Virus record (IMG/VR): IMGVR_UViG_3300034375_008445 | Span: 1-22,888 of that record | Origin: a virus | DNA length: 22,888 nt | Strand: one strand, 5' to 3' | Shown here: positions 734 through 22,888 of the stretch, piece after piece | Layout: every line of letters starts with the position of its first letter | Numbering within the stretch: the first letter of the stretch is position 1 | Notes under the pieces: model-generated | What the model was told of the DNA's origin: nothing | The model's database searches: none | The model's input: only the letters and a program-made list of their open reading frames with translations | Program-made: the position numbers and the translations under genes

Positions 734-934
734 ATGAAGTCAACAGCAAGAACAAGGTTGAAAGAATCAATCAAGTTAAAGGCACTCGCTGAGAGAGCTG
801 ACATTGATCCAGCATCTTTATCTCGTATCATTCACAATCGACAAAACTTAAGTCCTGAACTTGCTCAGAAGCTTGCTGATTGCGCTAATCAGCTAACAGG
901 CAGTGAACAATTTAAACCAACTGATTTTCTATAA
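734..934 (+). CDS. Cro/YdaS-like helix-turn-helix repressor, 66 aa
   Basis: This is a small basic protein. An HTH is visible at about residues 16-48: LKALAERADI, a turn, DPASLSRIIHNR as the recognition helix, then a supporting helix SPELAQKLADCAN. The size and the C-terminal tail (GSEQFKPTDFL) resemble phage Cro and YdaS-type regulators. AAGGAG at 723-728 supports the ATG at 734. It is the first gene of the early operon, directly behind three operator-like repeats, so autoregulation and control of the divergent initiator gene are the likely jobs. The fold is clear; the binding site is inferred. The next gene starts 12 nt after the stop. Confidence 0.8.
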   Translation: MKSTARTRLKESIKLKALAERADIDPASLSRIIHNRQNLSPELAQKLADCANQLTGSEQFKPTDFL

Positions 935-1343: not shown

Positions 1344-1627
1344 CAATCAAAGACGATCTAATCGTTGGATGCTTCGCTTTACTTTTAATCATTCCGGTCA
1401 TTTGGGTGGCAATCTCTCATGGTCAATTTGGATATGCTCCAGCTGATGAGTGTGCCAACATTATCAAGGATGGCATGAGCTACACTAAGAAAAAATACTT
1501 AATTAATGCCAAGCCAACCTATCCAAACATTCGTTCTTGGTGTGAGAAGAACCTTGATGATTGGAGACCAAAGGTAAGAAAAGCAATAAACTACAAAGAA
1601 CCACCACATCAAAACTATCACTACTAA
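1328..1627 (+). CDS. Single-span membrane protein, 99 aa, unknown function
   Basis: A charged N-terminus (MTPDKTIKDD) precedes one strong hydrophobic segment at about residues 11-29 (LIVGCFALLLIIPVIWVAI). A polar tail of about 70 residues follows, with two Cys (DECANI and RSWCEKN) and many Lys and Tyr. The expected topology is a short cytoplasmic end, one inner-membrane span, and a periplasmic or outer tail that could form a disulfide. AAAGGAAA at 1313-1320 is the SD. It is in the early operon, ahead of the recT-like gene. Early phage membrane proteins of this kind can act in superinfection exclusion or other host takeover, but that is speculation here; no family is recognised. Confidence 0.7.
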   Translation: MTPDKTIKDDLIVGCFALLLIIPVIWVAISHGQFGYAPADECANIIKDGMSYTKKKYLINAKPTYPNIRSWCEKNLDDWRPKVRKAINYKEPPHQNYHY

Positions 1628-1653
1628 TCAAAACAACTCAGGGAGAAAACACT

Positions 1654-2751
1654 ATGTATAAATCAATCTATATTCCAAAAGACATCAACGAAGCCATTCA
1701 AATCGCTCAACTACTCGACAACAACAGCGCTCAAGATCTTGTCCGTTGTCATGCTGCCTTTGGTCATCACTTCAATGGCGATATTGGTCTTGTTCAAACT
1801 CAAAGCTTTTGTCTGCGCGGTAAGCCCTCACTTAATGCTGATGCTATGGCAGGTATTTGTCGCAACTCTGGCTTGGTCCGCTTCATGCGAATCTCATCTT
1901 GGACCGCTCAACAATGTACGATGGAGTTTGCTCGCACAGATGAACCGGCTGACATTGTCCATACTTTCGTTTATACAATCGAGATGGCTCAAGCTCAAGG
2001 ACTTACAAACAATCGAAATTGGCGACAAATGCCCTTGCAGATGTTGCGCTCTCGTGTCTTGACTATGGGCCTTCGTGCTGTGTTCCCGGATGCTGTTAGC
2101 GGTATTTACTCAGCGGATGAGATTGCAGACAACACAAAGATGAGTGATGATGAACGAGCACAGATCAGCGCTGACTCACTCGGTGAAGAGATTCGTCCAC
2201 CAGCACCACAACAGCAAGCGCCACAACGACAAGCGCCAAAGCAAGCTCCAAAGCAACCAGCACCAAAGCAAGAAGCACCAAAAAAAACTGAAGTGAAAAC
2301 AGTTTGGTCCTTTGGGAGTGAGCAAGAGTTTTGGGAAGTGATTGACGAGCACAACATTTCAAGAGAGGAAGCTCAAGGTCGCTTGAATCGTCAAAAGCTT
2401 GATCCTGCTGACATGAATCCTGAAGAGTTGGAAGATGCTTTCTACAGCTTTATCAAACATGATGTCTTGAGACGAGCTTGGACTGATCTTCAAGATTGGT
2501 GGAAGCATGACAATGATGAAGCTGTTCAAGGTGTTCATGCTGGCTTTGTTGCTCAATATCCTGTACTTGCTGATTGTCCGCCAAACATCTATGGCCCGCG
2601 AATTAATGAGCCTGCTTATGCTGAGCTAGTCACTGAATTGAATCGAGTACCGGAGCAATACATGAATGAAGCAAAGAAGCTTCTCACCTATATGAAGAAG
2701 AATGATTGGAGCAAGGTCAATGAGTTCTTTGATCTATGCTTCAATGACTAA
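1654..2751 (+). CDS. RecT-type single-strand annealing protein, 365 aa
   Basis: Residues about 1-165 follow the RecT pattern. There is a segment of the type GKPSLNADAMAGICRNSGL, where RecT proteins have G-x-P-x-L-x-x-x-x-M and a following SG. Then come EMAQAQGL, where the family has a mid-domain acidic/AGL segment, and QMPLQMLRSRVLTMGLRAVF with PDAVSGIYSADE, matching the P-x-x-M-L-R-x-R ... FPD ... G-x-Y-x-x-E signature. Such proteins anneal complementary strands in phage recombination and replication. A Pro/Gln/Lys-rich linker spans about 180-213. A helical C-terminal part of about 150 residues (SREEAQGRLNRQ, LRRAWTDLQDWW) follows, which I do not recognise. GGGAGA at 1641-1646 supports the ATG at 1654 over an in-frame TTG at 1561 inside the previous gene. 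No partner exonuclease is in the window. The 3' end overlaps the convergent deaminase gene by 18 bp. Confidence 0.75.
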   Translation: MYKSIYIPKDINEAIQIAQLLDNNSAQDLVRCHAAFGHHFNGDIGLVQTQSFCLRGKPSLNADAMAGICRNSGLVRFMRISSWTAQQCTMEFARTDEPADIVHTFVYTIEMAQAQGLTNNRNWRQMPLQMLRSRVLTMGLRAVFPDAVSGIYSADEIADNTKMSDDERAQISADSLGEEIRPPAPQQQAPQRQAPKQAPKQPAPKQEAPKKTEVKTVWSFGSEQEFWEVIDEHNISREEAQGRLNRQKLDPADMNPEELEDAFYSFIKHDVLRRAWTDLQDWWKHDNDEAVQGVHAGFVAQYPVLADCPPNIYGPRINEPAYAELVTELNRVPEQYMNEAKKLLTYMKKNDWSKVNEFFDLCFND

Positions 2752-3180
2752 AGTCTCAACTTGATTCTCTTTGAGATAGTGAAGACCAGCGCCACCTATA
2801 TTTGGTGAATATACTCTGACTATTCCGCTGTGATGAATGGCCTTTGCACACATAAGGCAAGGATCACAGTTTACAATGAGCCACTTCCCAAGAGTAGAAT
2901 TGCCGGTCCTTGTAGCGTTGAGGATAGCGTTCATTTCAGCATGGTGGCATCCAATATCGTTTTGAGTTCCGCTGACAATGTGATCAGTGATTCGCTTGCA
3001 AGTTGAGCCACCACAAAGCGCCTTAGTCGATCCTCTTGGTGTTCCATTGTAGCCTTCGCTTATGATCACGTTTGTTGAAGGATCAACGATTACAGCGCCC
3101 ACTTTCCTTCTTGGACAAGGAGAGCTTGACGCTATGAGGTCACATTGCTTGATTCTTACTTGAAGGTGTTTAGCCTTCAT
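2734..3180 (-). CDS. Deoxycytidylate (dCMP) deaminase, 148 aa
   Basis: It would convert dCMP to dUMP in the cytoplasm, feeding thymidylate synthesis for phage DNA. The zinc-dependent cytidine deaminase signature is complete. HAEMNAI at residues 80-86 supplies the zinc His and the proton-shuttle Glu, and CDPCLMC at 105-111 supplies the two Cys of P-C-x-x-C. A CGGSTCKR motif upstream (56-63) with a following His matches the extra metal site usual in dCMP deaminases. Length is normal for the family. The ATG at 3180 is chosen over a TTG at 3195, as both lie within the upstream gene, which ends at 3170; the SD is weak, suggesting coupling. It is the last gene of the late operon, an unusual place for a nucleotide enzyme. 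Confidence 0.92.
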   Translation of the reverse strand: MKAKHLQVRIKQCDLIASSSPCPRRKVGAVIVDPSTNVIISEGYNGTPRGSTKALCGGSTCKRITDHIVSGTQNDIGCHHAEMNAILNATRTGNSTLGKWLIVNCDPCLMCAKAIHHSGIVRVYSPNIGGAGLHYLKENQVETLVIEA

Positions 3181-3472
3181 AAGTACCACTAGCAAAGCTC
3201 ATGGGAGTGTCGACAAACTTAAGGTTTTTTTTTCCAAGGAGCAATCTCATTTGAGCTTCAAGCCTAGCATTTGACTCCATGAGTTGATTGAGCTTGGTAT
3301 TAATATCATTCAACTGACTATCCACTTGAACACTCTTTGTTTCAAGCGTTGCGATCTGTTGCTTCATCCGACCAAGCTCTTCTGACTTTTGAGCCTTGTC
3401 TTTGGTGGTCGAGTACCAAAAAGCAGCTAAGGCTAAGAGTTGACCAACATCTATCGGATTCATGCTGTCCAT
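3170..3472 (-). CDS. N-terminally anchored coiled-coil protein, 100 aa
   Basis: A short hydrophobic segment (VGQLLALAAFWYS, about residues 9-21) is followed by a long polar helix at about 25-80 with heptad-like spacing (ELGRMKQQIATLETK, LNDINTKLNQLMESNARLEA). It should be a membrane-attached coiled coil. GGAAG lies just before the ATG at 3472, which starts 2 nt after the preceding stop; the end overlaps the deaminase start. It is one of three small membrane or coiled-coil genes behind the fibre module. A lysis-related role (spanin or holin accessory, by analogy with XhlA or Rz) is possible but rests on topology only. A run of nine A on the coding strand near 3224-3232 is a potential slippage spot, but both alternative frames close quickly. 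Confidence 0.65.
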   Translation of the reverse strand: MDSMNPIDVGQLLALAAFWYSTTKDKAQKSEELGRMKQQIATLETKSVQVDSQLNDINTKLNQLMESNARLEAQMRLLLGKKNLKFVDTPMSFASGTYEG

Positions 3473-5592: not shown

Positions 5593-7614
5593 CTAGATAA
5601 TATACCAGCTAGATGTACCATCGCTAACAATAGTCAAAGCTTGGTATTGTACATTAAGCTGATATGTTAAACTAGCATCTATAGTTTCAGTTGAATTCGC
5701 ATCTACTGTTAAAGTATATGAGCTAGATAGATTTTTAATAACATACTTATATCCCGATCCAACAGTACTTGCGCTCGGAAGATTCACATTAATAGATGCA
5801 CCAGAATCAATTAAAAATATTTCTTCTATTCCGGTGTTTGTTGATATTGTATAGTCAGTAGTTTGAGACGTGCTTACTGATGTTATATTAGGCTTTGCAC
5901 CGCTTGCGGGTGCTACCGCTTGCCATTCACTAGCAGTGTTATCATAAGTAAGCACATGACCATCAATACCAGCGCCTGCTGTGAAACTTACATCGCTCAG
6001 ATCGTTCAAGCTTTCGCTTGTGATGTTTGAGATAAAAGCGCTTGTTGTGTTATTCATCGCTGACAAATCGAGTGAACTGATATTGCTTGGGACCAAAGCT
6101 TTGTCTGTTGCTGTTCCTGCACCCGCTTCCGCATTGGTCGCAATTTCAATTATACCAGCTGTTGTCTCGCTTGCAGGACTTGCGCTTGGTACTGCTTCGG
6201 CTCCCCAAGATGTCGTTGCATGATCATAGGTCAGAACATAGTTGTCAATTCCGGCTCCGGCTGTGAATGATACATCACTTAGATCATTAAGGCTTTCGCT
6301 TGTGATGTCACTAATGAAAGCGCTTGTGGTGTTGTCCATTGCTGACAAATCGAGTGATGAAACGTTGCTTGGAACTAGCGCCTTATCTGTTGCTGTTCCT
6401 GCTGTCGCTTCCGCGTTCGTAGCAATCTCGATGATGCCTGCTGTTGTCTCGCTTGCTGGACTTCCACCGGGAACCGCTTCCGCGCCCCAAGAGCTAGTTC
6501 CGTTGTCATAAGTCAGAACATAGTTGTCAATCCCTGCGCCTGCTGTGAAGCTCACATCACTCAGATCATTAAGGCTCTCGTTTGTGATGTTTGAAATGAA
6601 TCCTGAATCATTGTCAAAGGTGCTTAGATCAATATGGCTAAGATTGGCAGGAGTCAGAATCTTATCATTAGCAGTCGCGCTTGTTGCTTCTGCATTTGTA
6701 GCAGTCTCTAAAATACCTGCTGTGCTGTGGCTTGCTGTTGGGATGTCACCGACAGTGATGAAAGCGCTTGTTGTGTTGTCCATTGCTGACAAATCGAGAG
6801 AACTGATATTGCTAGGAACCAAAGCTTTATCGGTCGCTGTACCTGCTCCGGCTTCTGCGTTCGTAGCAATCTCAATCACTCCAGCCACTGTTTCACTTGC
6901 CGGTGTTGCGCTTGGTACTGCTTCAGCTCCCCAAGTTGATGTTCCGTTGTCATAGGTCAGAACATAGTTGTCAATACCTGCTCCGGCTGTGAAGCTTACA
7001 TCACTCAGATCATTAAGGCTCTCACCTGTGATGTCTGAAATAAAAGCGCTTGTTGTATTGTCCATCGCTGACAAGTCAAGTGAACTGATATTGCTTGGAA
7101 CCAAAGCTTTGTCGGTCGCTGTGCCTGCTGTCGCTTCGGCATTGGTCGCGATCTCAATGACTCCAGCCACTGTCTCGCTTGCCGGTGTATCTGTATTATC
7201 AATCTTGTCGATCTTGCTATTGGTGATTGTGCCACCCATGTCTTCATTGATGAGCAAGTGATCACCGACAGCCCAAGTCTGCCCATAAATTGTGCCTGCT
7301 GTGTCGATGATATAGAAGTCACCTTTTTCGGCATTGAGAAGGCTTGGAGTTCCTGCTGTTGCATTGAAAGCGCCTTTGTATTCAAGGCCACCTGTGAAGT
7401 CTAAAGTTGCAAAGCTTAGAGTCCCGGTTCCGTTAGTTTGGAGAACTTGATTTTCTGAACCATCGAGAGTTGGAAGACTGTACTCGGTTCCAATAGTGAC
7501 TCCACCAACTGTGATGGCGTTTGTGGTTGTGGCTCCTCTTGAAGTGACATCATCAAGATTGTCAGTTCCTGCGCCACCGCCTGCGCTTGCGAATCCAAAA
7601 GATTTAATTGCCAT
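5593..7614 (-). CDS. Repeat-containing tail fibre protein, 673 aa
   Basis: AAGGAG upstream supports the ATG at 7614. Residues 75-130 (EYKGAFNATAGTPSLLNAEK, then GDFYIIDTAGTI, then WAVGDHLLINED) match the small domain common near the N-terminus of phage fibres. Residues 143-568 are five repeat units beginning (S/T)PASET-AGIIEIATNAEA, followed by ATDKALVP. This is the phage tail-fibre repeat type (Pfam Phage_fiber_2 pattern: G-hydrophobic-I-x-L/I-A-T-x-x-E ... D-x-x-A-V/L-x-P). Four units add the linker SLNDLSDVSFTAGAGID-x-x-VLTYD. The C-terminal 600-673 (IEEIFLIDSGASINVNLPSA, then GYKYVIKNLSSS, then SSWYII) is a typical fibre end domain. It is the adsorption fibre, probably a trimer, and is followed by its likely accessory proteins. 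Confidence 0.88.
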   Translation of the reverse strand: MAIKSFGFASAGGGAGTDNLDDVTSRGATTTNAITVGGVTIGTEYSLPTLDGSENQVLQTNGTGTLSFATLDFTGGLEYKGAFNATAGTPSLLNAEKGDFYIIDTAGTIYGQTWAVGDHLLINEDMGGTITNSKIDKIDNTDTPASETVAGVIEIATNAEATAGTATDKALVPSNISSLDLSAMDNTTSAFISDITGESLNDLSDVSFTAGAGIDNYVLTYDNGTSTWGAEAVPSATPASETVAGVIEIATNAEAGAGTATDKALVPSNISSLDLSAMDNTTSAFITVGDIPTASHSTAGILETATNAEATSATANDKILTPANLSHIDLSTFDNDSGFISNITNESLNDLSDVSFTAGAGIDNYVLTYDNGTSSWGAEAVPGGSPASETTAGIIEIATNAEATAGTATDKALVPSNVSSLDLSAMDNTTSAFISDITSESLNDLSDVSFTAGAGIDNYVLTYDHATTSWGAEAVPSASPASETTAGIIEIATNAEAGAGTATDKALVPSNISSLDLSAMNNTTSAFISNITSESLNDLSDVSFTAGAGIDGHVLTYDNTASEWQAVAPASGAKPNITSVSTSQTTDYTISTNTGIEEIFLIDSGASINVNLPSASTVGSGYKYVIKNLSSSYTLTVDANSTETIDASLTYQLNVQYQALTIVSDGTSSWYII
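5911..7188 (-). repeat. Five tandem repeat units within the tail fibre gene (about 282 bp each, one short)
   Basis: Units start at fibre residues 143, 237, 295, 385 and 479, with spacings of 94, 58, 90 and 94 residues. Long units are two parts: an EIATNAEA-type fibre repeat ending in SAMDNTTSAFIS, and a SLNDLSDVSFTAGAGID linker. Unit 2 lacks the second part and passes through ITVGDIPTA into the divergent unit 3. Similarity holds at the DNA level, so homologous exchange could change the unit count. Confidence 0.9.
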
Positions 7615-8011: not shown

Positions 8012-8219
8012 CTGTTTTCCCCTTTGTTTCTGTGGTTTGTGGTTGACGCTTGGCCATGACATTCGCGCCGGCATAGATAAAGAATAACGTATCAATCAAT
8101 CCTAGAACTTCAGTATGTGCTTTGTCTAGCAAAGCGAGAGTGAAGCAACAGGCAAGAGCAGCATAAAAAGCTAAAGCTTTTCGACCGCCGGCTTTATCGG
8201 TCATCGTTTGATTATTCAT
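8004..8219 (-). CDS. Holin candidate, two membrane segments, 71 aa
   Basis: GTGAGGA directly before the ATG at 8219 makes it the best start; a GTG 12 nt upstream is the alternative. Two hydrophobic segments are visible: ALAFYAALACCFTLALL and VLGLIDTLFFIYAGANVMA, joined by a short charged loop (DKAHTE), with a polar basic C-terminus (KRQPQTTETKGKTDE). This is the size and topology of a small class II-type holin. It overlaps the end of the CHAP lysin gene, the usual holin-endolysin pairing, although here the lysin comes first. The role as holin is inferred from topology and neighbours. Confidence 0.72.
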   Translation of the reverse strand: MNNQTMTDKAGGRKALAFYAALACCFTLALLDKAHTEVLGLIDTLFFIYAGANVMAKRQPQTTETKGKTDE

Positions 8220-8877
8220 CGAAGTCCTCACCTAGAAGTCTATAGACATGAGCGAACTCAGAGAACTTACGCTGGCGCTTGATTACACCTTCGCCATATT
8301 CACCATTCCCAAGAGTCCCATGAGCATTTCCTTCAATGGTCGTGATGTACCCTTCATTAACAGTTGAGTTGTCAATGCAAAGAGTAATGTGATCGCCTTG
8401 AAGCGCTCGCTTACTACTATACACAACGACAATATCACCGGGAGCAACCTTACCATGCTCTATTGATCGCGATGTCTTAGACCAATTTTTATAAAGTCGA
8501 TAACAGCTAGGCATAACTTTTTGGCGAATTGGGAACTTGACAGCTGTATGACAGAAAGCAGCAAAGAATCCACACCAAGCATATTGGCCGTTCTTTGTAT
8601 AGTCAGCTTGCCAAGACCATCCAGCGCCCTCTCTACTCTTGCAATAAGTATCAACTCTTGCATCAGGATCAACGACAACGCGCTCCCACTCAGCATAGGC
8701 ACGATCAAGAGCTTGTCTTGTCTGTGGAGACAAAGCTGGAGTTGTATGACTCTGAGTGTAAGCATTTGTGTCGAGTTGCTCTAAATCGAGTCTAGCTTGA
8801 TTCAATGCTCGCTCACTGCGTCTAAGATCATGTTTTAGATCGTCAAGTTGTTGCTCAAGTTCTGCTTTAGTTGGCAT
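8212..8877 (-). CDS. CHAP/NlpC-P60-type peptidoglycan hydrolase (endolysin), 221 aa
   Basis: It probably cleaves peptidoglycan amide bonds. The N-terminal 40 residues are a charged coiled coil (LEQQLDDLKHDLRRSERALN). The Cys-peptidase part covers about 70-215: YAWCGFF with catalytic Cys102, KVAPGDIVVVY typical of the central strand, GDHITLCI with catalytic His163, and TIEGNA with Glu182/Asn184 as the third polar residue. No signal peptide is present, so a holin would be needed, and one overlaps downstream. AGGAG about 9 nt upstream of the ATG lies in the end of the hub gene (TAATG overlap). The position directly behind the tail hub means a virion-associated entry lysin is an alternative. Confidence 0.82.
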   Translation of the reverse strand: MPTKAELEQQLDDLKHDLRRSERALNQARLDLEQLDTNAYTQSHTTPALSPQTRQALDRAYAEWERVVVDPDARVDTYCKSREGAGWSWQADYTKNGQYAWCGFFAAFCHTAVKFPIRQKVMPSCYRLYKNWSKTSRSIEHGKVAPGDIVVVYSSKRALQGDHITLCIDNSTVNEGYITTIEGNAHGTLGNGEYGEGVIKRQRKFSEFAHVYRLLGEDFDE

Positions 8878-13625: not shown

Positions 13626-14821
13626 AGGTGTTCAATCTCCATGTTCACCGGTACTCTTCTTTTTAATCGAGTTGGATAGGCCAAATCGAAGTCGGAAGTT
13701 GTCAAGCTTCCTCTCACTCGACCAAGAGCGCCATTATCTTCTGAAGTATATAAAAGATCATAGCTTGGTTGACTCGAATTAACTTGGCTAGATGTCAAGG
13801 CTCTCCGGGAGTCCCCCCAAGATTGATAAAAGTTGATACGCTCGCCACTCCCCACCAATGGCAAGAAGTTATTTATAAAGTGTTTATAGTCGTCAACTTG
13901 ATCAAGCAAAGCATCAAGATCGAATCTTAGAATGGATGTGACATAAGAGCCGATGAAGTTTGAGACATAACCGCCACCGATCTTTCTCCGGCTTTGGCTC
14001 ATGTTCTCCGCTTTTAGGTGGTGATTCTGATAAGGTCTTGAGGGAAGTAATACCCCATGACTCTTGTGGGTTGATGTGATTCGGGAGTGTGTACCATCGG
14101 TGACCGGTGATTCTTCCCCTGTGAATCCTAGCAAGTTTCTGATCGTTGTGTTGCTCCATGTTATATCACCTAAGCTAGTCCTATAATGACATTGAACATA
14201 ACCTTGATCGGTTAAAGTCCAAGTGATGTCAGTTGAGCTTTGAGCAGTATTATCAAGCGCTTGAAGTGAGCTTAATCCAAAGCTGTCTGAGTCGCTTTCA
14301 TCATAACCGCGAATAAAGCAAGTCACATCTTGAACATCGCTTTTAATGCTTGGGATATTAAAAGTATTTGATCCGCCTGACTCATCAATGCGATAGCTGA
14401 CATCATCAAGATCAATCAAGCCCCTAGCCCAATCATTGGGAGCGCTCAACACATAGTCAGAACCAACCAAGCTGGCCACAAGTGTTGAAGTGCCAAAACC
14501 AAAAGGATCATCACTTCCGGTTGATGTCACTTTGAATTGAACATCCGAAGTGATAGTCACCTTGTCGTCTTCGTTGATAGTCATCGCCCAAGATGTTCCA
14601 AAGGTGGCAAGGCTAAGTTGATAATCAGCTTTGAAGCTTGCATCAACTCCCCGACCATTCAAGAAGAAAAGCATATCCTCATAATAGCCTTGACCGCTTG
14701 CATAGTTTGGAAGGTCCACATCACTGCCACCGGAGCGAGTGAAGATAGTCTCCCCACTTTGGCCGGTCATATCAATGGAAGTTAAAAGCCCAAAGTTTGG
14801 CGCTGGATTATTTAATGGCAT
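13622..14821 (-). CDS. Distal-tail-like protein directly after the tape measure, 399 aa
   Basis: The ATG at 14821 shares its A with the TAA stop of the tape measure gene (TAATG), so coupling is expected; a G-rich stretch lies upstream. The protein begins MPLNNPAPNFGLLTSIDMTG. The middle is beta-rich (KVTITSDVQFKVTSTG), and the C-terminal part (SNFIGSYVTSILRFDLDALL, INFYQSW, GRVRGSLTTSDFDLAYPTRL) ends in a strand (VPVNMEIEHL). In siphoviruses the gene after the tape measure usually encodes the distal tail or minor tail protein that caps the tube. That role is inferred from order alone. Confidence 0.65.
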   Translation of the reverse strand: MPLNNPAPNFGLLTSIDMTGQSGETIFTRSGGSDVDLPNYASGQGYYEDMLFFLNGRGVDASFKADYQLSLATFGTSWAMTINEDDKVTITSDVQFKVTSTGSDDPFGFGTSTLVASLVGSDYVLSAPNDWARGLIDLDDVSYRIDESGGSNTFNIPSIKSDVQDVTCFIRGYDESDSDSFGLSSLQALDNTAQSSTDITWTLTDQGYVQCHYRTSLGDITWSNTTIRNLLGFTGEESPVTDGTHSRITSTHKSHGVLLPSRPYQNHHLKAENMSQSRRKIGGGYVSNFIGSYVTSILRFDLDALLDQVDDYKHFINNFLPLVGSGERINFYQSWGDSRRALTSSQVNSSQPSYDLLYTSEDNGALGRVRGSLTTSDFDLAYPTRLKRRVPVNMEIEHL

Positions 14822-16962
14822 TACATGGCCCCCCTTCTTGGCGCTCCACGTCTTCGAGTATTCTGAAGGTTAGTGATTCGATCCGCAAGAGCTTGTTCAG
14901 CTGCTCTTTGAGTATCATAGATGACAGCGCCACCAAAGTTGATGTTAAACACCATGCTTGATGTTTCCGCTTGCTCTCGCTGTGGTGTGGTCGCTGTCTG
15001 TGGTGTGCCTGTTGGAGAAGTTGCACCGGCTGAAGCTGTGGCCATTGAACCACCGCCACCACCGCCCATTGCTTTACCTGCTATACCAGCCGAAGCTGCT
15101 GCACCTGCGAATAAACCAGCCGCAACAAAGTGATTTGAAGCTGTTGCAGGATTGAGAATTAAAGCTGCTGTTCCTTTTGCTGTCTCCATTAGACTTTGAA
15201 CCGCTGCTTGTTGACCAAGTGAGATCAATATATTTCCAACGGATTCTTTGAAGTTCTCACCAAATAAAAGTGAAGCATAAGCAGCTTCTACAAGACCAGC
15301 GCCATATTGACTAGCGAACTCTCCCACTTTTTCAATTTGAGCATTGATTGATTGATTAACTATTTTTTGACGCTCTATTGTTTGTCTACGTTGAAGCTCT
15401 GTAATCTCTTCTTGAGTATGCTTATTAAGCTCAATCTCTCTTTTATATTTTAAATCAAGTAAAGCAATCTCTCGTTGTGTTTGGTCTTTAATCTGTTGAG
15501 CATTAAACTCTTCAGTATCAAACATGAAAGCTTTCATTTGCTCTTGTCTGATTCTTAAACTTTCTTGCTCGGCTTTTTGCCTTGCTTCTAATTCAGACTT
15601 TTCTTTTTTGCGCCTATCAAGTTCAAGCTGAGTGATTGCATTATTGTATCTTAATTGAGCAATAATCTTTTTTCTATCATTATCTCCAGCTAGCTTTAGT
15701 TCTTGCTCATATTGAAGTTTTAAGATTGTTTCTTTTTCAACACCAACGATTTGAAGACGAGCAATTTCAAGATTTCTAATTTGAGCTTGTTCAGCTTCGG
15801 CTTGTCTCTCTTCTGCTAATCGTTTAGCTCTATAAGCTGCCGCCATTGCTCTTCGTTTTGCTTGTTCTTGTTGCGCTTTAACTTGAGCATCTTTTTGAAT
15901 CTGAGCAAGTTCAAGCATCAAGCGCTCTTCTTCGGACTTGATAGCTTTTGCTCTGATTTCTTGGCTAAGTGTTTCCTGTGCTCTTATCTCTCTGATTCTG
16001 CGATTAGATTGAATAACTGCAATGTTTGTCAGATTTTGTTCTGTTTTCTCTCTGAGCTTTAATTGTTCAAGCGCTGCATCTTCGAGAAGTTTAGCTTCAG
16101 CATTAAGTTGCTCACCTCTCAGCTTTGGAGATCGTTTTAAAAGTCTCTCTTTTTCAGCTTCAAACTTAGCAAAGTTGTTTGCACCTTTTTGACCAAGTTC
16201 GATTGCTTCTTGTTCTTTACGCTTTAGCTTCTCACTTAAATACAATCTAGTCTGTTCTTTTTTCTCAATCTCAGCTTGTGCCTGAGCTAAAGATAAAGCA
16301 GCTTGTTCAATCATTCTTGAAGATGCTATTGAACCTTTTTGACTAGTTAGTAATTCTTTATTTATTTTCAATCGTTCTTTAGCTTGTTTAATCTCTATAT
16401 CAAGTCTAAAGATTCGCTTATCTATAGCAGCATTCCGTTCTCTTATTTCTTGAGCTGATTCAATATCAAGTTTCGCTTGCATACTTAAGTTTTGCAATCG
16501 TTCAACTTCAGCTTTATTAAGCTTGACTTGATAGGTGGCCAACTCTTCAAGCGCTGAAGTTAATTCGCTAACCGAAGCAATGTAAGCATCATGACGAACA
16601 TTAACTCCATTGACTTCATCTTGGTATTCTCTCCAAGCTTTAGCCACTTGAAAAACTGCAACACCAACTAAGCCAATAGGACCAAGCAAAGCGCTAAAGC
16701 TTGTTCCGGCAGTTTGAGCAGATTGACCGAGCGCAACAAGTGAACTAATAGCACCTTGAGCTGTTTGACCAACAGCACCAAGCTTTTGAGTTGCATTATC
16801 ACCCATGCTAGTTATTGCACCACTAACACCGGTAAAAGTCTCACCAACACCGGTGAAAGTCTTGCCAAGATCTTTTCCGCCTTGCTCAATCTCTTGGAAG
16901 CCTTGATCAACTTGCTCAGTATTTAAAACAACATCAATCTCAATTCTTCTATTTGTTGCCAT
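14821..16962 (-). CDS. Tail tape measure protein, 713 aa
   Basis: It spans the tail lumen during assembly and sets tail length. The N-terminus (MATNRRIEIDVVLNTEQVDQ) is followed by Gly/Ala-rich helices. A hydrophobic segment lies at about 88-107 (LLGPIGLVGVAVFQVAKAW), then a very long charged coiled coil at about 130-560 rich in Lys, Glu, Gln and Arg. A second hydrophobic zone lies at about 565-655 (YASLLFGENFKESVGN, AALILNPATASNHFVAAG, GLFAGAAASAGIAG), followed by a Gly-run linker and a tail-tip end (FNINFGGAVIYD). This order is diagnostic. With lambda gpH as a yardstick, 713 residues imply a tail of very roughly 105-125 nm. The start lies 14 bp inside the end of the GT frame; the SD is weak. 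Confidence 0.93.
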   Translation of the reverse strand: MATNRRIEIDVVLNTEQVDQGFQEIEQGGKDLGKTFTGVGETFTGVSGAITSMGDNATQKLGAVGQTAQGAISSLVALGQSAQTAGTSFSALLGPIGLVGVAVFQVAKAWREYQDEVNGVNVRHDAYIASVSELTSALEELATYQVKLNKAEVERLQNLSMQAKLDIESAQEIRERNAAIDKRIFRLDIEIKQAKERLKINKELLTSQKGSIASSRMIEQAALSLAQAQAEIEKKEQTRLYLSEKLKRKEQEAIELGQKGANNFAKFEAEKERLLKRSPKLRGEQLNAEAKLLEDAALEQLKLREKTEQNLTNIAVIQSNRRIREIRAQETLSQEIRAKAIKSEEERLMLELAQIQKDAQVKAQQEQAKRRAMAAAYRAKRLAEERQAEAEQAQIRNLEIARLQIVGVEKETILKLQYEQELKLAGDNDRKKIIAQLRYNNAITQLELDRRKKEKSELEARQKAEQESLRIRQEQMKAFMFDTEEFNAQQIKDQTQREIALLDLKYKREIELNKHTQEEITELQRRQTIERQKIVNQSINAQIEKVGEFASQYGAGLVEAAYASLLFGENFKESVGNILISLGQQAAVQSLMETAKGTAALILNPATASNHFVAAGLFAGAAASAGIAGKAMGGGGGGSMATASAGATSPTGTPQTATTPQREQAETSSMVFNINFGGAVIYDTQRAAEQALADRITNLQNTRRRGAPRRGAM

Positions 16963-17380
16963 TGTGAGCTTCTTTCATCATGCGTTCTTGTGTTCTATAA
17001 TGCGCTTCTTCTGTGTTTGAGTGTAGCACGTCAACGGCTTCAAGTAGAGCGCAAGTTGGATTTGGATATGTATGTGTTATCTCAGCAAGTCCGGCTCTGT
17101 GTCTATGATAAGCTTGAATAATTGAAGCAAGCTTATTTGATGAAGCGACCGGACAAGATCGAATCTTTAAATCTGAATAGTCTTCACCACAATCGGGAGC
17201 CACTCGATAACCTGGCAAGTAATACCCTTCTTCATCTGTCTGAAGCATAGGCAAGCCTTTTTTAAAAGCTCCACCACAGTTCCCACGAAGCTTCCTTAAT
17301 CCTTGCTTGGCTTGGCATTGTTCACATGACCAAGCTCGCCCCTTCGAATGACTAAGCCAAACCGAAGAGGCCAGCGCTAT
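16949..17380 (-). CDS. Tail chaperone T domain, made as G-T fusion by -1 frameshift (143 aa added)
   Basis: This frame is open from 17386 to a TAG at 16949 but has no usable start near its beginning. It is reached from the upstream G gene through the GGGAAAA slip site, adding 143 residues after G residue 170 for a 313-residue G-T product. In lambda, gpG-T binds the tape measure and recruits tail tube subunits. The added part begins IALASSVWLSHSKGRAWSC and holds CEQC at fusion residues 189-192, Cys205 (RGNCGG), Cys234 (APDCGED) and Cys246 (RSCPVA), a possible zinc site. A TTG at 17254 or ATG at 17248 would allow separate expression but would cut off the first three Cys. It ends inside the tape measure start, as expected of T. 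Confidence 0.8.
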   Translation of the reverse strand: MALASSVWLSHSKGRAWSCEQCQAKQGLRKLRGNCGGAFKKGLPMLQTDEEGYYLPGYRVAPDCGEDYSDLKIRSCPVASSNKLASIIQAYHRHRAGLAEITHTYPNPTCALLEAVDVLHSNTEEAHYRTQERMMKEAHNGNK

Positions 17381-17889
17381 TTTCCCTCAATGCCTAACAG
17401 GCTGATTCTTTGGATATGTGCGACAAGTTCAGAGATTGCCTTGATCCTTGCGGACTCTGGTCGAATCAGTTGGACTTTGTCAATGCTCGCTTCCTCATTG
17501 TCAATGTGAGTCAATGAAGATATGATCATTTCATTATAAACTCGGTTCAAGTAGGCTTCATAATTGGCCATTGCTTCACGTTCATCATCTGTTAGATTGT
17601 GATGCCAGACAGCCCTTGCTTTTGAATCGCTTGGCGCTTCCACCCAAAGCATCCGCCCCAACTCGCTTCGAGTGTACGCGCCTGCTCTGACTTCAGCTTC
17701 TTCACGTTCGCTTGGTGACAATGCTTTGATTGTGAATCGAGTTGCATCCTCACTCACAGACTCCAAGTCATTCAAGTCACCGCTTTGAATATACTTTGCT
17801 TTTTGTTCGTCTGTTGCCTTCACACCGGAATCACTAGTAATAACGATCTCAAGTGTTTGATCCGCGCTAGTTAAGAAGCTTAAAGCCAT
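17377..17889 (-). CDS. Tail assembly chaperone G, 170 aa
   Basis: Located between major tail and tape measure genes and followed by an overlapping -1 frame, which together define the G chaperone. The protein is helical and acidic (DLNDLESVSEDATRFTIKAL, SPSEREEAEVRAGAYTRSEL, NLTDDEREAMANYEAYLNRV), begins MALSFLTSADQTLEIVITSD, and ends ISLLGIEGK at the slip site. GGTGA about 6 nt upstream supports the ATG at 17889 over a TTG at 17901; the ATG is one base after the major tail stop. G keeps the tape measure soluble and sets the ratio of G to G-T. Sequence similarity to named G families was not recognised; the call rests on order and frameshift architecture. Confidence 0.82.
   Translation of the reverse strand: MALSFLTSADQTLEIVITSDSGVKATDEQKAKYIQSGDLNDLESVSEDATRFTIKALSPSEREEAEVRAGAYTRSELGRMLWVEAPSDSKARAVWHHNLTDDEREAMANYEAYLNRVYNEMIISSLTHIDNEEASIDKVQLIRPESARIKAISELVAHIQRISLLGIEGK
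17380..17386 (-). promoter_or_regulatory. Programmed -1 ribosomal frameshift site GGGAAAA
   Basis: On the minus strand the G gene ends GAG GGA AAA TAG, so the heptamer G GGA AAA has the canonical X XXY YYZ phase and abuts the stop. Lambda G/T uses GGGAAAG. A -1 slip continues ATA GCG CTG in the T frame, open for 143 codons. I see no strong hairpin within 10 nt downstream; a 6-bp stem (GCTTGG/CCAAGC, 14-nt loop) lies roughly 45 nt on, too far to be the usual stimulator. Confidence 0.82.
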
Positions 17890-17890
17890 T

Positions 17891-19195
17891 TTAGTCACCA
17901 ATTCCTAAACCAAGTCTAAATGGAGAGTTCCCTGCGTTTGCTTCATAAGCAGTTGTGGAGAAGTCACCAGCATATCTTGATTGAACATAATTAAGCTGTT
18001 GTCTCACAATGTCATTCCCTGAAACATCATAAACCGATGGATCACTTGTGAGCATTGCAGCAGGAAGCATGATTGCACAACCTTGACCGGTTCCTTGTGG
18101 GCCTGTACCAACTAAGACTTGGCGAACTGTTCTATTGAAGAAGTCATTTGCAATAGTTGTATTCACTGTTGACAAAGTCAGAGATAGCTCAACTTGAACA
18201 TCGCTGATCTCCATGTCAGACATTGCCAAGATACTGTTGCTGTGGCCCATAGGTGTCAAAGTGTTTGTGTAGGTCAAGCTGAAGTCCTCACAATCAAGCG
18301 CTGTTCTTCCAAGCTTGTCTCCGCTTGTTGCGTTTGTGAGTGAGCTAGGAGCGCTTGAAGATACCACAACATAAGCACCTCTAAATAAAGGAGCTGCGCC
18401 TGTGTTGTAGCTTGGCTCAACAGGACCGGTGGCACTTGCATGATCATCGGTGATGTATGCTGCTTGGAAAGTGAACTCAGCCATTAAGCGACCGTTATCA
18501 AGAGTGATGTTCAAGCTCTCCATCACACAGCCATATGCGTATGATAAGAAGTTGACACCTTCGATCTTGAATGAAACAGAGCTTTCATAGTCTCCGGTAT
18601 TGGTTCGGCTTGGAGTGTACCAAGTTTGAAGGCCACGAACCGAAGTGTAAGAGCTTGAAGATAAAGCAGGTGAGATTGTCACGTCACTGCTTGCATCTGC
18701 ATTATCTGTAATTGCAGAGTATTCAGCACGACCATTGATTGAAGTGCTGATCAAAGTTCCAATATCAGTGATGGCTGGAGCGCTTGTTGGTGTGTATGTG
18801 TTAGCGTCAACAGCTGTCACTGTGTCGCTCTGAACACTTGGAAGCTTGGTCTTGAAACCTGCACCTAATAGATAGCCAAGATAGTTTGCTGTGTAGTCAT
18901 CATCAGCACTGCCAACAGTTGTCAGATCAACTCGACAAACGATTGAGCCTGTACGTCTTCTTACTCGACTTCCACCGCTCCAAACTGTGTCCGGCTCACT
19001 CGGTACATTATAAGAACCATCACGAGCATCATTTCGCTCTGAGACAATCGCTTCACCTGCAATCACAATCGGATCACGTTCGCAAGGGATTGAGATATAA
19101 GTAAGGCCCGAAGATGTAGGAAGGCCTGTTGATGCATCAAGTGAACCAAAGCTTGATTCAACTGCAATGCTTAGACTTCTGTGTGTCACTGCCAT
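17891..19195 (-). CDS. Major tail (tube) protein, 434 aa
   Basis: It should form the tail tube. It lies directly upstream of the chaperone pair and downstream of terminator- and neck-like genes, the standard place. TTGGAGT about 8 nt upstream supports ATG 19195 (MAVTHRSLSIAVESSFGSLD) over an upstream in-frame start at 19222. Strand-rich segments include VRRRTGSIVCRVDLTTV, YESSVSFKIEGVNFLSYAYG and MESLNITLDNGRLMAEFTF, with DMEISDVQVELSLTLSTVN near the end. At 434 residues it is larger than lambda gpV, suggesting an inserted or added surface domain, possibly within the Ser/Thr/Ala-rich middle (TDNADASSDVTISPALSSSS). No sheath gene follows, which favours a siphovirus tail. Confidence 0.8.
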   Translation of the reverse strand: MAVTHRSLSIAVESSFGSLDASTGLPTSSGLTYISIPCERDPIVIAGEAIVSERNDARDGSYNVPSEPDTVWSGGSRVRRRTGSIVCRVDLTTVGSADDDYTANYLGYLLGAGFKTKLPSVQSDTVTAVDANTYTPTSAPAITDIGTLISTSINGRAEYSAITDNADASSDVTISPALSSSSYTSVRGLQTWYTPSRTNTGDYESSVSFKIEGVNFLSYAYGCVMESLNITLDNGRLMAEFTFQAAYITDDHASATGPVEPSYNTGAAPLFRGAYVVVSSSAPSSLTNATSGDKLGRTALDCEDFSLTYTNTLTPMGHSNSILAMSDMEISDVQVELSLTLSTVNTTIANDFFNRTVRQVLVGTGPQGTGQGCAIMLPAAMLTSDPSVYDVSGNDIVRQQLNYVQSRYAGDFSTTAYEANAGNSPFRLGLGIGD

Positions 19196-19196
19196 T

Positions 19197-19661
19197 TTAA
19201 GACTCCAAATAGAGAAGATCAAAAGGAAGAATCAAGAGATAAGCAAAGACTTCACCCCTATCATCAAGTATAGTTTCAAGTGTAGCTTGCAAAGGAATCA
19301 AGCTTATTATGCCTGTTGTTGCTAGTTGGTATTGTGGACCTTTAAGCTTGTCGATTAAGTCAGCAACATCTTCATTGATTTGTCGAGTCAAGAAGCCTGA
19401 GTCATGAGGGATGTCATATCTCACTCGGCATTGAATCCTTGACCGCTTTCGACCACTAAGACCGGCTTGACCATCATCAATGGCAAGGCCTTCAATGGCA
19501 AGCTCAAAGTACCTTGTTGAGTTAGGCCTATCTTCTAAGCTGGCAGTAAAGCCACCACCGCGATTGATTGCAACAAAGCCATGATGAGAATCTGTTTTTG
19601 GACTGATCGCTTCAATGGAGTTTTCCAGATATTCAAGCGCTGAGAAGATGCCTTGACTCAT
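19197..19661 (-). CDS. Tail terminator/completion protein candidate, 154 aa
   Basis: It begins MSQGIFSALEYLENSIEAIS and has an alpha-beta pattern: N-terminal helix, strands (TRYFELAIEGLAI, SRIQCRVRYDIP), a helix carrying INEDVADLIDKLKG, and strands with IISLIPLQATLETI and LILPFDLLYLES. This order (helix, antiparallel sheet, central helix, return strands) suits tail-terminator proteins such as lambda gpU. AAGGAG precedes the ATG, which overlaps the previous stop as ATGA (19658-19661). The stop is 1 base from the major tail start. Identification is by length, secondary-structure impression and gene order. Confidence 0.68.
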   Translation of the reverse strand: MSQGIFSALEYLENSIEAISPKTDSHHGFVAINRGGGFTASLEDRPNSTRYFELAIEGLAIDDGQAGLSGRKRSRIQCRVRYDIPHDSGFLTRQINEDVADLIDKLKGPQYQLATTGIISLIPLQATLETILDDRGEVFAYLLILPFDLLYLES

Positions 19662-22034: not shown

Positions 22035-22888
22035 TTAGAGACAATCAGTGATGATACGACCAAGAGTTGAATCAACAGCGTGGAAGGTGTTGACTTCTTC
22101 ACCCCAAACATAACGGCGAGTCTTGTCTAGGCTGTCATACTGACCGCTTACCATATCGTTAAATGATAGGTTAAGAGCAGCAACAGGCATACCCTTCACA
22201 TTACCGCTCTTTTGAACGATAGCATCAGAACCGCGAAGAATACCCATGAACAAGCTGTCACCTGTCCAAATATAAGACTCTGAGCTAGTAGCACCAGGAA
22301 CAGCAGTGTCTTGACGAGCTTGGCCAACAAAGATGTTAGGGATACCAAGAACATCACGAAGAACAGCAAGAACAGCTTCATCGTTTAAGATGCGCTCACC
22401 GCTTGCGATACCATTGGCGCTAGTTCCAACATAACCACGAACTTCAGGATTACGCGCTAACTCGCGGAATAATTGACGACCAAAGATCAAGGTGTCTGGA
22501 TTGATACCATGAGCAGCTTCAAATACAGTGTCCTTCAACTCATGAAGGTAGCTAAGAGCTTCCGCGCCAACAGCGTTGAACTTACCGCCGAACTCATTGG
22601 TCGCGCTGTCGTTGTTAAAGTTAGCTGTACCGAAAAGAAGATCAGCAGCACGCTTCTCGCGAGCAAGCTTCATAACGCGAGCAACCTTCTTTGCAATGCG
22701 AGCTTCTTCACTGCCGGGATATTGGCTGTCAAAGATGTCTTCCATTGCGATTGAATCGCTTGCGCTGTAGATCTTAGCTTTGAAAGTTTGGCTTGAACGA
22801 TCGAAACCACCGATTGAAGCACGACTTGAACCGGGAGCGCGCTCAAGGTCAAGGCCTGCACCTGCGCCCATGAAATTACGAGTGTTTT
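22035..22888 (-). CDS. Major capsid protein (5' end outside the window)
   Basis: The frame stays open to the right edge, so an ATG at 22871 is internal or at least not assured; about 284 codons are visible. Segments include SSQTFKAKIYSASDSIAMED, then IAKKVARVMKLAREKRAADL followed by LFGTANF. Later come NPDTLIFGRQLFRELARNP, then VLRDVLGIPNIFVGQA, then SYIWTGDSLFMGILRG and VNTFHAVDSTLGRIITDCL. The series of a long helix, a peptide inspecting array such as NPDTLIFG, and terminal strands is typical of coat proteins related to the major capsid families of Mu-like and other phages. It is the first visible gene of the late operon. Codon choice here (GCG, CGC, AAG) looks somewhat more biased than in the neighbours, as expected of the most abundant product. 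Confidence 0.85.
   Translation of the reverse strand, partial: NTRNFMGAGAGLDLERAPGSSRASIGGFDRSSQTFKAKIYSASDSIAMEDIFDSQYPGSEEARIAKKVARVMKLAREKRAADLLFGTANFNNDSATNEFGGKFNAVGAEALSYLHELKDTVFEAAHGINPDTLIFGRQLFRELARNPEVRGYVGTSANGIASGERILNDEAVLAVLRDVLGIPNIFVGQARQDTAVPGATSSESYIWTGDSLFMGILRGSDAIVQKSGNVKGMPVAALNLSFNDMVSGQYDSLDKTRRYVWGEEVNTFHAVDSTLGRIITDCL

Follow-up and report, generated by a model that had tools for sequence, protein, structure and literature searches.

A Predicted Lambda-Type −1 Frameshift in a New Sequence Family of Putative Phage Tail Assembly Chaperones

Results

Two overlapping frames beside a tape measure gene

We analyzed a whole virus record from IMG/VR (IMGVR_UViG_3300034375_008445; 22,888 bases, referred to here as the window) and found that two overlapping frames next to its tape measure gene, G and T, very probably (about 0.94) form a lambda-type G/GT programmed −1 frameshift of a new sequence family, complete with slip site, spacer, and hairpin. 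Such a frameshift had been proposed in a sequence-only reading of the window, and conservation among relatives lends it strong support. The kind of signal is well known but the family is new, and it stands out by an unusually complete slip site-spacer-hairpin arrangement and by an apparently selected stop codon adjacent to the slip site. The two frames, the heptamer, the hairpin, and the conservation of each are shown here. The features of the locus, all on the minus strand, are as follows.

17377..17889, minus: G gene, 170 aa, putative short tail assembly chaperone; ATG at 17889, stop TAG at 17379-17377, product ending ...GIEGK
17393..17395, minus: candidate weak Shine-Dalgarno-like element (AGG) 6 nt ahead of the heptamer, suggested by codon choice only
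17380..17386, minus: slippery heptamer G_GGA_AAA, the same in 110/110 distinct junctions
17377..17379, minus: zero-frame stop TAG directly after the heptamer, seen in the sequence and in relatives
17334..17375, minus: predicted RNA hairpin 3′ of the slip site, from folding, synonymous controls, and compensatory pairs
16949..17380, minus: T part, −1 frame, 143 codons plus stop TAG at 16951-16949, seen in the sequence and in relatives
16949..17889, minus: putative GT fusion by −1 shift, 313 aa (...GIEGK/IALASS...), deduced from the two frames, which are conserved together
14821..16962, minus: tape measure protein, 713 aa (PHROG 1538, tail length tape measure protein, E 7.8e-8)
22035-22871, minus: capsid protein (PHROG major head protein)

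The minus-strand order is thus G, T, tape measure, with the start of the tape measure gene overlapping the end of T by 14 nt, and the junction reads ...ATT GAG GGA AAA TAG CGC.... Several minus-strand genes without assigned function separate the capsid gene from G; an ORF of 443 aa (17891-19222), which has no profile match, sits where the major tail protein would be expected. Elsewhere in the window, Pfam matches identify a RecT-family recombinase (1561-2751, plus strand) and a deoxycytidylate deaminase-like protein (2734-3195, minus strand), and a match below the Pfam cut-off points to a CHAP-like putative lysin (8212-8877, minus strand). A putative tail fibre gene (5593-7614) contains internal repeats with a 282-bp period (2.2 copies, TRF), and the motif SLNDLSDVSFTAGAGID recurs in it. 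Direct repeats of 24 bp (112-203, 3.8 copies) and 16 bp (645-691, 2.9 copies) lie upstream of a small HTH gene (734-934, plus strand) and are possible regulatory sites.

Relatives were gathered from the uncultured phage contigs of IMG/VR with G, T, and their alignments as queries; from one family search, the best 80 of 245 related contigs were taken. The resulting family set holds 110 distinct junctions, which fall into 47 clusters at 80% identity. Homologues of G of nearly equal length are present in more than 80 contigs of IMG/VR. When 50,697 phage records were searched, no relative of the GT protein was found, and the window's capsid protein gave a mere 26% match, to one Vibrio phage. Rfam gave no match. 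The sole match in a bacterial genome, a Sphingomonadales MAG (L065), was rejected as a clue to the host, since the match is short and lies at a contig edge, and the ORFs of this contig look chromosomal and not viral.

The slip site

As had been read from the window, G ends in GAG GGA AAA TAG, and its heptamer (17386-17380, minus strand) stands in the phase required for a −1 slip. In the relatives, GGGAAAA in this phase is present in 110 of 110 distinct junctions. The codon that precedes the heptamer encodes E, S, Q, R, or A, yet its third position is always G, and elsewhere these genes use GGA for just 18% of their Gly codons and AAA for 54% of their Lys codons. Around the junction, synonymous sites are most conserved precisely at codons −2 to +1, and, barring a few single codons, conservation is at background on both sides; a second strong peak coincides with the overlap of the T end and the tape measure start.

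The position of the shift is confined by the frames themselves. In the window, the −1 frame carries a TGA right before GGG, and the two frames are jointly open over the heptamer alone, so a −1 shift joining G to T is possible only there. In 32 of the 47 clusters, no more than two or three codons of open −1 frame precede T, which forces the shift to lie at the heptamer or next to it.

The slip heptamer of phage lambda is GGGAAAG; the site described here differs from it in the last base, which is A instead of G. In E. coli, GGG_AAA_A has been reported to be inefficient, weak compared with GGG_AAA_G (PMC4066793), so the hairpin described below may be needed, although the host of the phages studied here may differ. 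A further element may lie upstream: the codon before the conserved Gly ends in A in 29 of 47 clusters, against a background of 30% (naive p 7e-6), and in most of those 29 this yields AGG 6 nt upstream of the heptamer. We regard this weak Shine-Dalgarno-like sequence as suggestive only.

The T frame

Read from ATA (17380-17378), the −1 frame reaches its stop at 16951-16949. It had been described as open for 143 codons without a nearby start of its own, and the relatives agree: no start codon is common to their T frames, and even the best position has ATG, GTG, or TTG in only 22 of 47 clusters. It had also been anticipated that gene callers would miss T or cut it at 17254; mechanical ORF calling does start T at TTG 17254 (16949-17254). 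T is open in the relatives and conserved from codon 1 onward, even where identity falls to about 45%. Stops in the stretch upstream of 17254 were looked for in these relatives and none was found; this stretch is among the most conserved of T, with W8, L9, R15, W17, C19, Q21, C22, R32, G33, and C35 invariant. Trypsin cuts at the junction Lys, and the tryptic peptide IALASSVWLSHSK would mark T read from its first codon.

A conserved hairpin downstream of the slip site

The sequence-only reading had seen no strong hairpin. This was mistaken, for a conserved, covarying hairpin is predicted 8 nt downstream of the heptamer. Its core (17338-17371) is a stem of 17371-17362 paired with 17347-17338, topped by an apical stem (17359-17356 with 17352-17349) and extended by an outer 3 bp (17375-17373 with 17336-17334). 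The spacer from heptamer to core stem is 8 nt, or 4 nt when the outer 3 bp are counted; the core stem thus lies within the ~5-8 nt expected of structures in bacterial −1 signals. In the window, the hairpin from 17375 to 17334 has a folding energy of −25.6 kcal/mol (z −5.0 versus dinucleotide shuffles). Across 39 clusters, 60-nt windows that start 5 or 8 nt past the heptamer have mean z of −2.7 and −3.0 versus shuffles, the remaining windows having mean z mostly between −0.3 and −1.1.

Synonymous codon redrawing was used to remove the effect of protein sequence on folding. T codons 3-17 gave a mean z of −3.05 versus such redraws, and 82% of clusters fell below −2; nine control windows elsewhere in T gave z of −0.04 to −0.62. 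For the window itself, none of 2000 synonymous redraws was as stable as the real sequence.

No pairs emerged when the 141-column alignment was folded to a consensus, likely because the 3′ arm of the hairpin occupies three registers across the family (pair sums 50, 51, and 53). Pairs were therefore counted per register. In the first register, position +10/+40 changes from CG to GC, +12/+38 is TG, TA, GC, or AT, +15/+35 is GC, AT, or GT, and +16/+34 is CG or GC, with pairing at these positions kept in 26-29 of 29. The hairpin is kept across the family, and these pair changes are compensatory. Absence of the hairpin in one lineage (L054-L059) was considered and rejected: a short window gives −3.8 kcal/mol (seen in L187), but a longer fold gives −17.7 to −22. 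This lineage has an extended, differently paired stem, whose loop is longer and whose 3′ arm lies downstream of its place in the other family members.

A stop codon beside the slip site

Right after the heptamer, 101 of the 110 junctions carry a zero-frame stop (95 TAG, 5 TGA, and 1 TAA). In the remaining 9, TAG follows exactly two codons on; this second form requires at least four label changes on the protein tree even when the count is limited to well-supported branches. Among the 43 clusters whose T codon 1 encodes Ile, 40 use ATA, compared with 20% ATA elsewhere (naive p 6e-25, which ignores relatedness). The ATA excess, the restriction of the stop to two positions, and the several label changes suggest that selection acts on the stop near the slip site itself, beyond what the protein demands.

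Identity of the G and T proteins

Neither G nor T has a convincing match in Pfam or PHROGs. The AlphaFold2 model of G has a pLDDT of 87.7; that of T is poor (pLDDT 64). Against predicted viral proteins, the G fold gave weak matches, several of them named tail assembly chaperones, including 204- and 358-residue forms from Arthrobacter phage Molivia and others from Mycobacterium, Rheinheimera, Bacillus, and Gordonia phages; only one match, to an unnamed protein, had E below 1e-3. Foldseek comparison of G with the PDB gave nothing significant. The best solved structure for G is YqbN (3klu; Z 5.5 over 96 residues, a weak match), a protein of a Bacillus prophage-like element. The predicted fold of G thus weakly resembles tail assembly chaperones. 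In T, Cys 19, 22, 35, and 76 are invariant and Cys 110 is nearly so; this CxxC...C...C pattern may point to a metal-binding domain.

In two contigs, L015 (5001-5636) and L226 (IMGVR_UViG_3300025695_001160), G contains an in-frame tandem duplication of ~42 residues (EEAEVRAGAYTRSELGRMLW...), which could be real or an assembly artefact.

Discussion

How T is expressed can be read in ways other than by frameshifting. T might be made separately, by coupled re-initiation at the G stop, with GAGGGA as Shine-Dalgarno sequence and ATA or another weak codon as start. A purine-rich GAGGGA does stand just ahead of ATA, and some relatives have an ATG at or next to T codon 1, for example GGGAAAATGATG (L263, L266, L259, and L268; also L234). 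However, GAG varies (TCG, GCG, CGG, and CAG also occur) while GGGAAAA is invariant, T codon 1 may also be ATC, ATT, or ACA, with no start common across clusters, and re-initiation needs neither a heptamer in slip phase nor a covarying hairpin inside T; we consider it very improbable. Even less credence can be given to a start of T at TTG 17254, with the stretch upstream open by chance. This is what mechanical ORF calling delivers, but the 42 upstream codons are strongly conserved, with invariant residues, and codon 43, the TTG of the window, is start-type in only 17 of 47 clusters. Readthrough or recoding of TAG, without any frameshift, is equally remote: the stop is TAG in most relatives, but TGA or TAA in some, the zero frame beyond it is of scattered extent, from 0 to 82 codons with 7 and 26 frequent, and three other window ORFs that were counted also end in TAG. 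Transcriptional slippage was judged unlikely, given a run of only four A. The programmed −1 frameshift is left as the reading that we prefer. In the five relatives named above the junction reads GGGAAAATGA and the heptamer is kept, so T might be made both ways there.

Within the frameshift reading, the part played by the stop can be argued in two directions. A slow UAG in the A site could drive late slippage of Lys-tRNA, making the stop a helper; the sequence-only reading had suggested that stalling at the stop may help in place of a strong hairpin. Selection on the stop beyond the protein (the ATA excess), together with the occurrence of TAG two codons away in all 9 junctions that lack the adjacent one, speaks for a helper. 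Against it, tests of the HIV slip site in a bacterial reporter showed less frameshifting when a stop came immediately after the slip, and none when extra cognate release factor was supplied (PMC4373837). These results make the adjacent stop more likely to compete with slippage than to assist it. Moreover, the stop can be two codons on, and the conserved hairpin already provides a pause, which leaves stalling in place of a hairpin unsupported and a helper role rather doubtful. The stop more likely serves as a brake, or as a guard that prevents ribosomes still in the zero frame from entering the hairpin. A specific version, in which the stop is a selected governor and competition between release factor 1 and slippage at UAG, together with the hairpin pause, sets the G:GT ratio, is a tentative proposal, to which we give slightly more weight than to the helper.

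The closest known system is G/GT of phage lambda (PMC5009743). Both have two overlapping frames beside the tape measure gene, a GGGAAA-type −1 heptamer at the end of G, a T without its own start, and an expected small share of fusion. Unlike in lambda, the proteins described here have no detectable similarity to any Pfam or PHROGs profile, a stop follows the heptamer directly, and a conserved hairpin lies 8 nt downstream. The tail chaperone cluster of HK97-like prophages found by GeneTack is likewise a bacterial tail chaperone −1 programmed frameshift, with 6-7% frameshifting measured at its sites (PMC3711429); it belongs to another protein family. The −1 signals of IS3/IS911 and dnaX (PMC4066793) share the heptamer, the short spacer, and the downstream structure, and an upstream Shine-Dalgarno-like element may exist here; they use A_AAA_AAG instead of G_GGA_AAA, and the product here is a putative tail chaperone. 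A stop codon right after the slippery heptamer also occurs in systems read by eukaryotic ribosomes; their genes are unrelated, in contrast to the bacterial virus with a simple hairpin considered here.

That slippage happens, how efficient it is, and what G, GT, and the stop do are our inferences, set out as follows. One mRNA would yield two tail assembly chaperones, G and GT. The majority of ribosomes would terminate at TAG and release G (170 aa). Some, with Gly-tRNA on GGA and Lys-tRNA on AAA, would slip back one base to GGG AAA and continue through T to make GT (313 aa). The stable hairpin 8 nt past the heptamer would keep the ribosome on the slip site, and the adjacent stop would end the zero frame before non-shifting ribosomes enter the hairpin; release factor 1 probably competes with late slippage, helping to set the G:GT ratio. 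As in phage lambda, G would coat the tape measure protein and T would recruit the major tail protein.

The analysis adds a large phage family, one without a match among the phage records searched, to the G/GT frameshift kind, and indicates that the default gene models of the family are wrong, with T dropped or truncated. With its invariant heptamer, covarying hairpin, and selected stop at only two positions, the natural alignment is of unusual clarity, and the family lends itself to asking how a stop codon beside a slip site acts in bacteria. If the stop does act as a governor, a phage could read the termination capacity of its host when building tails.
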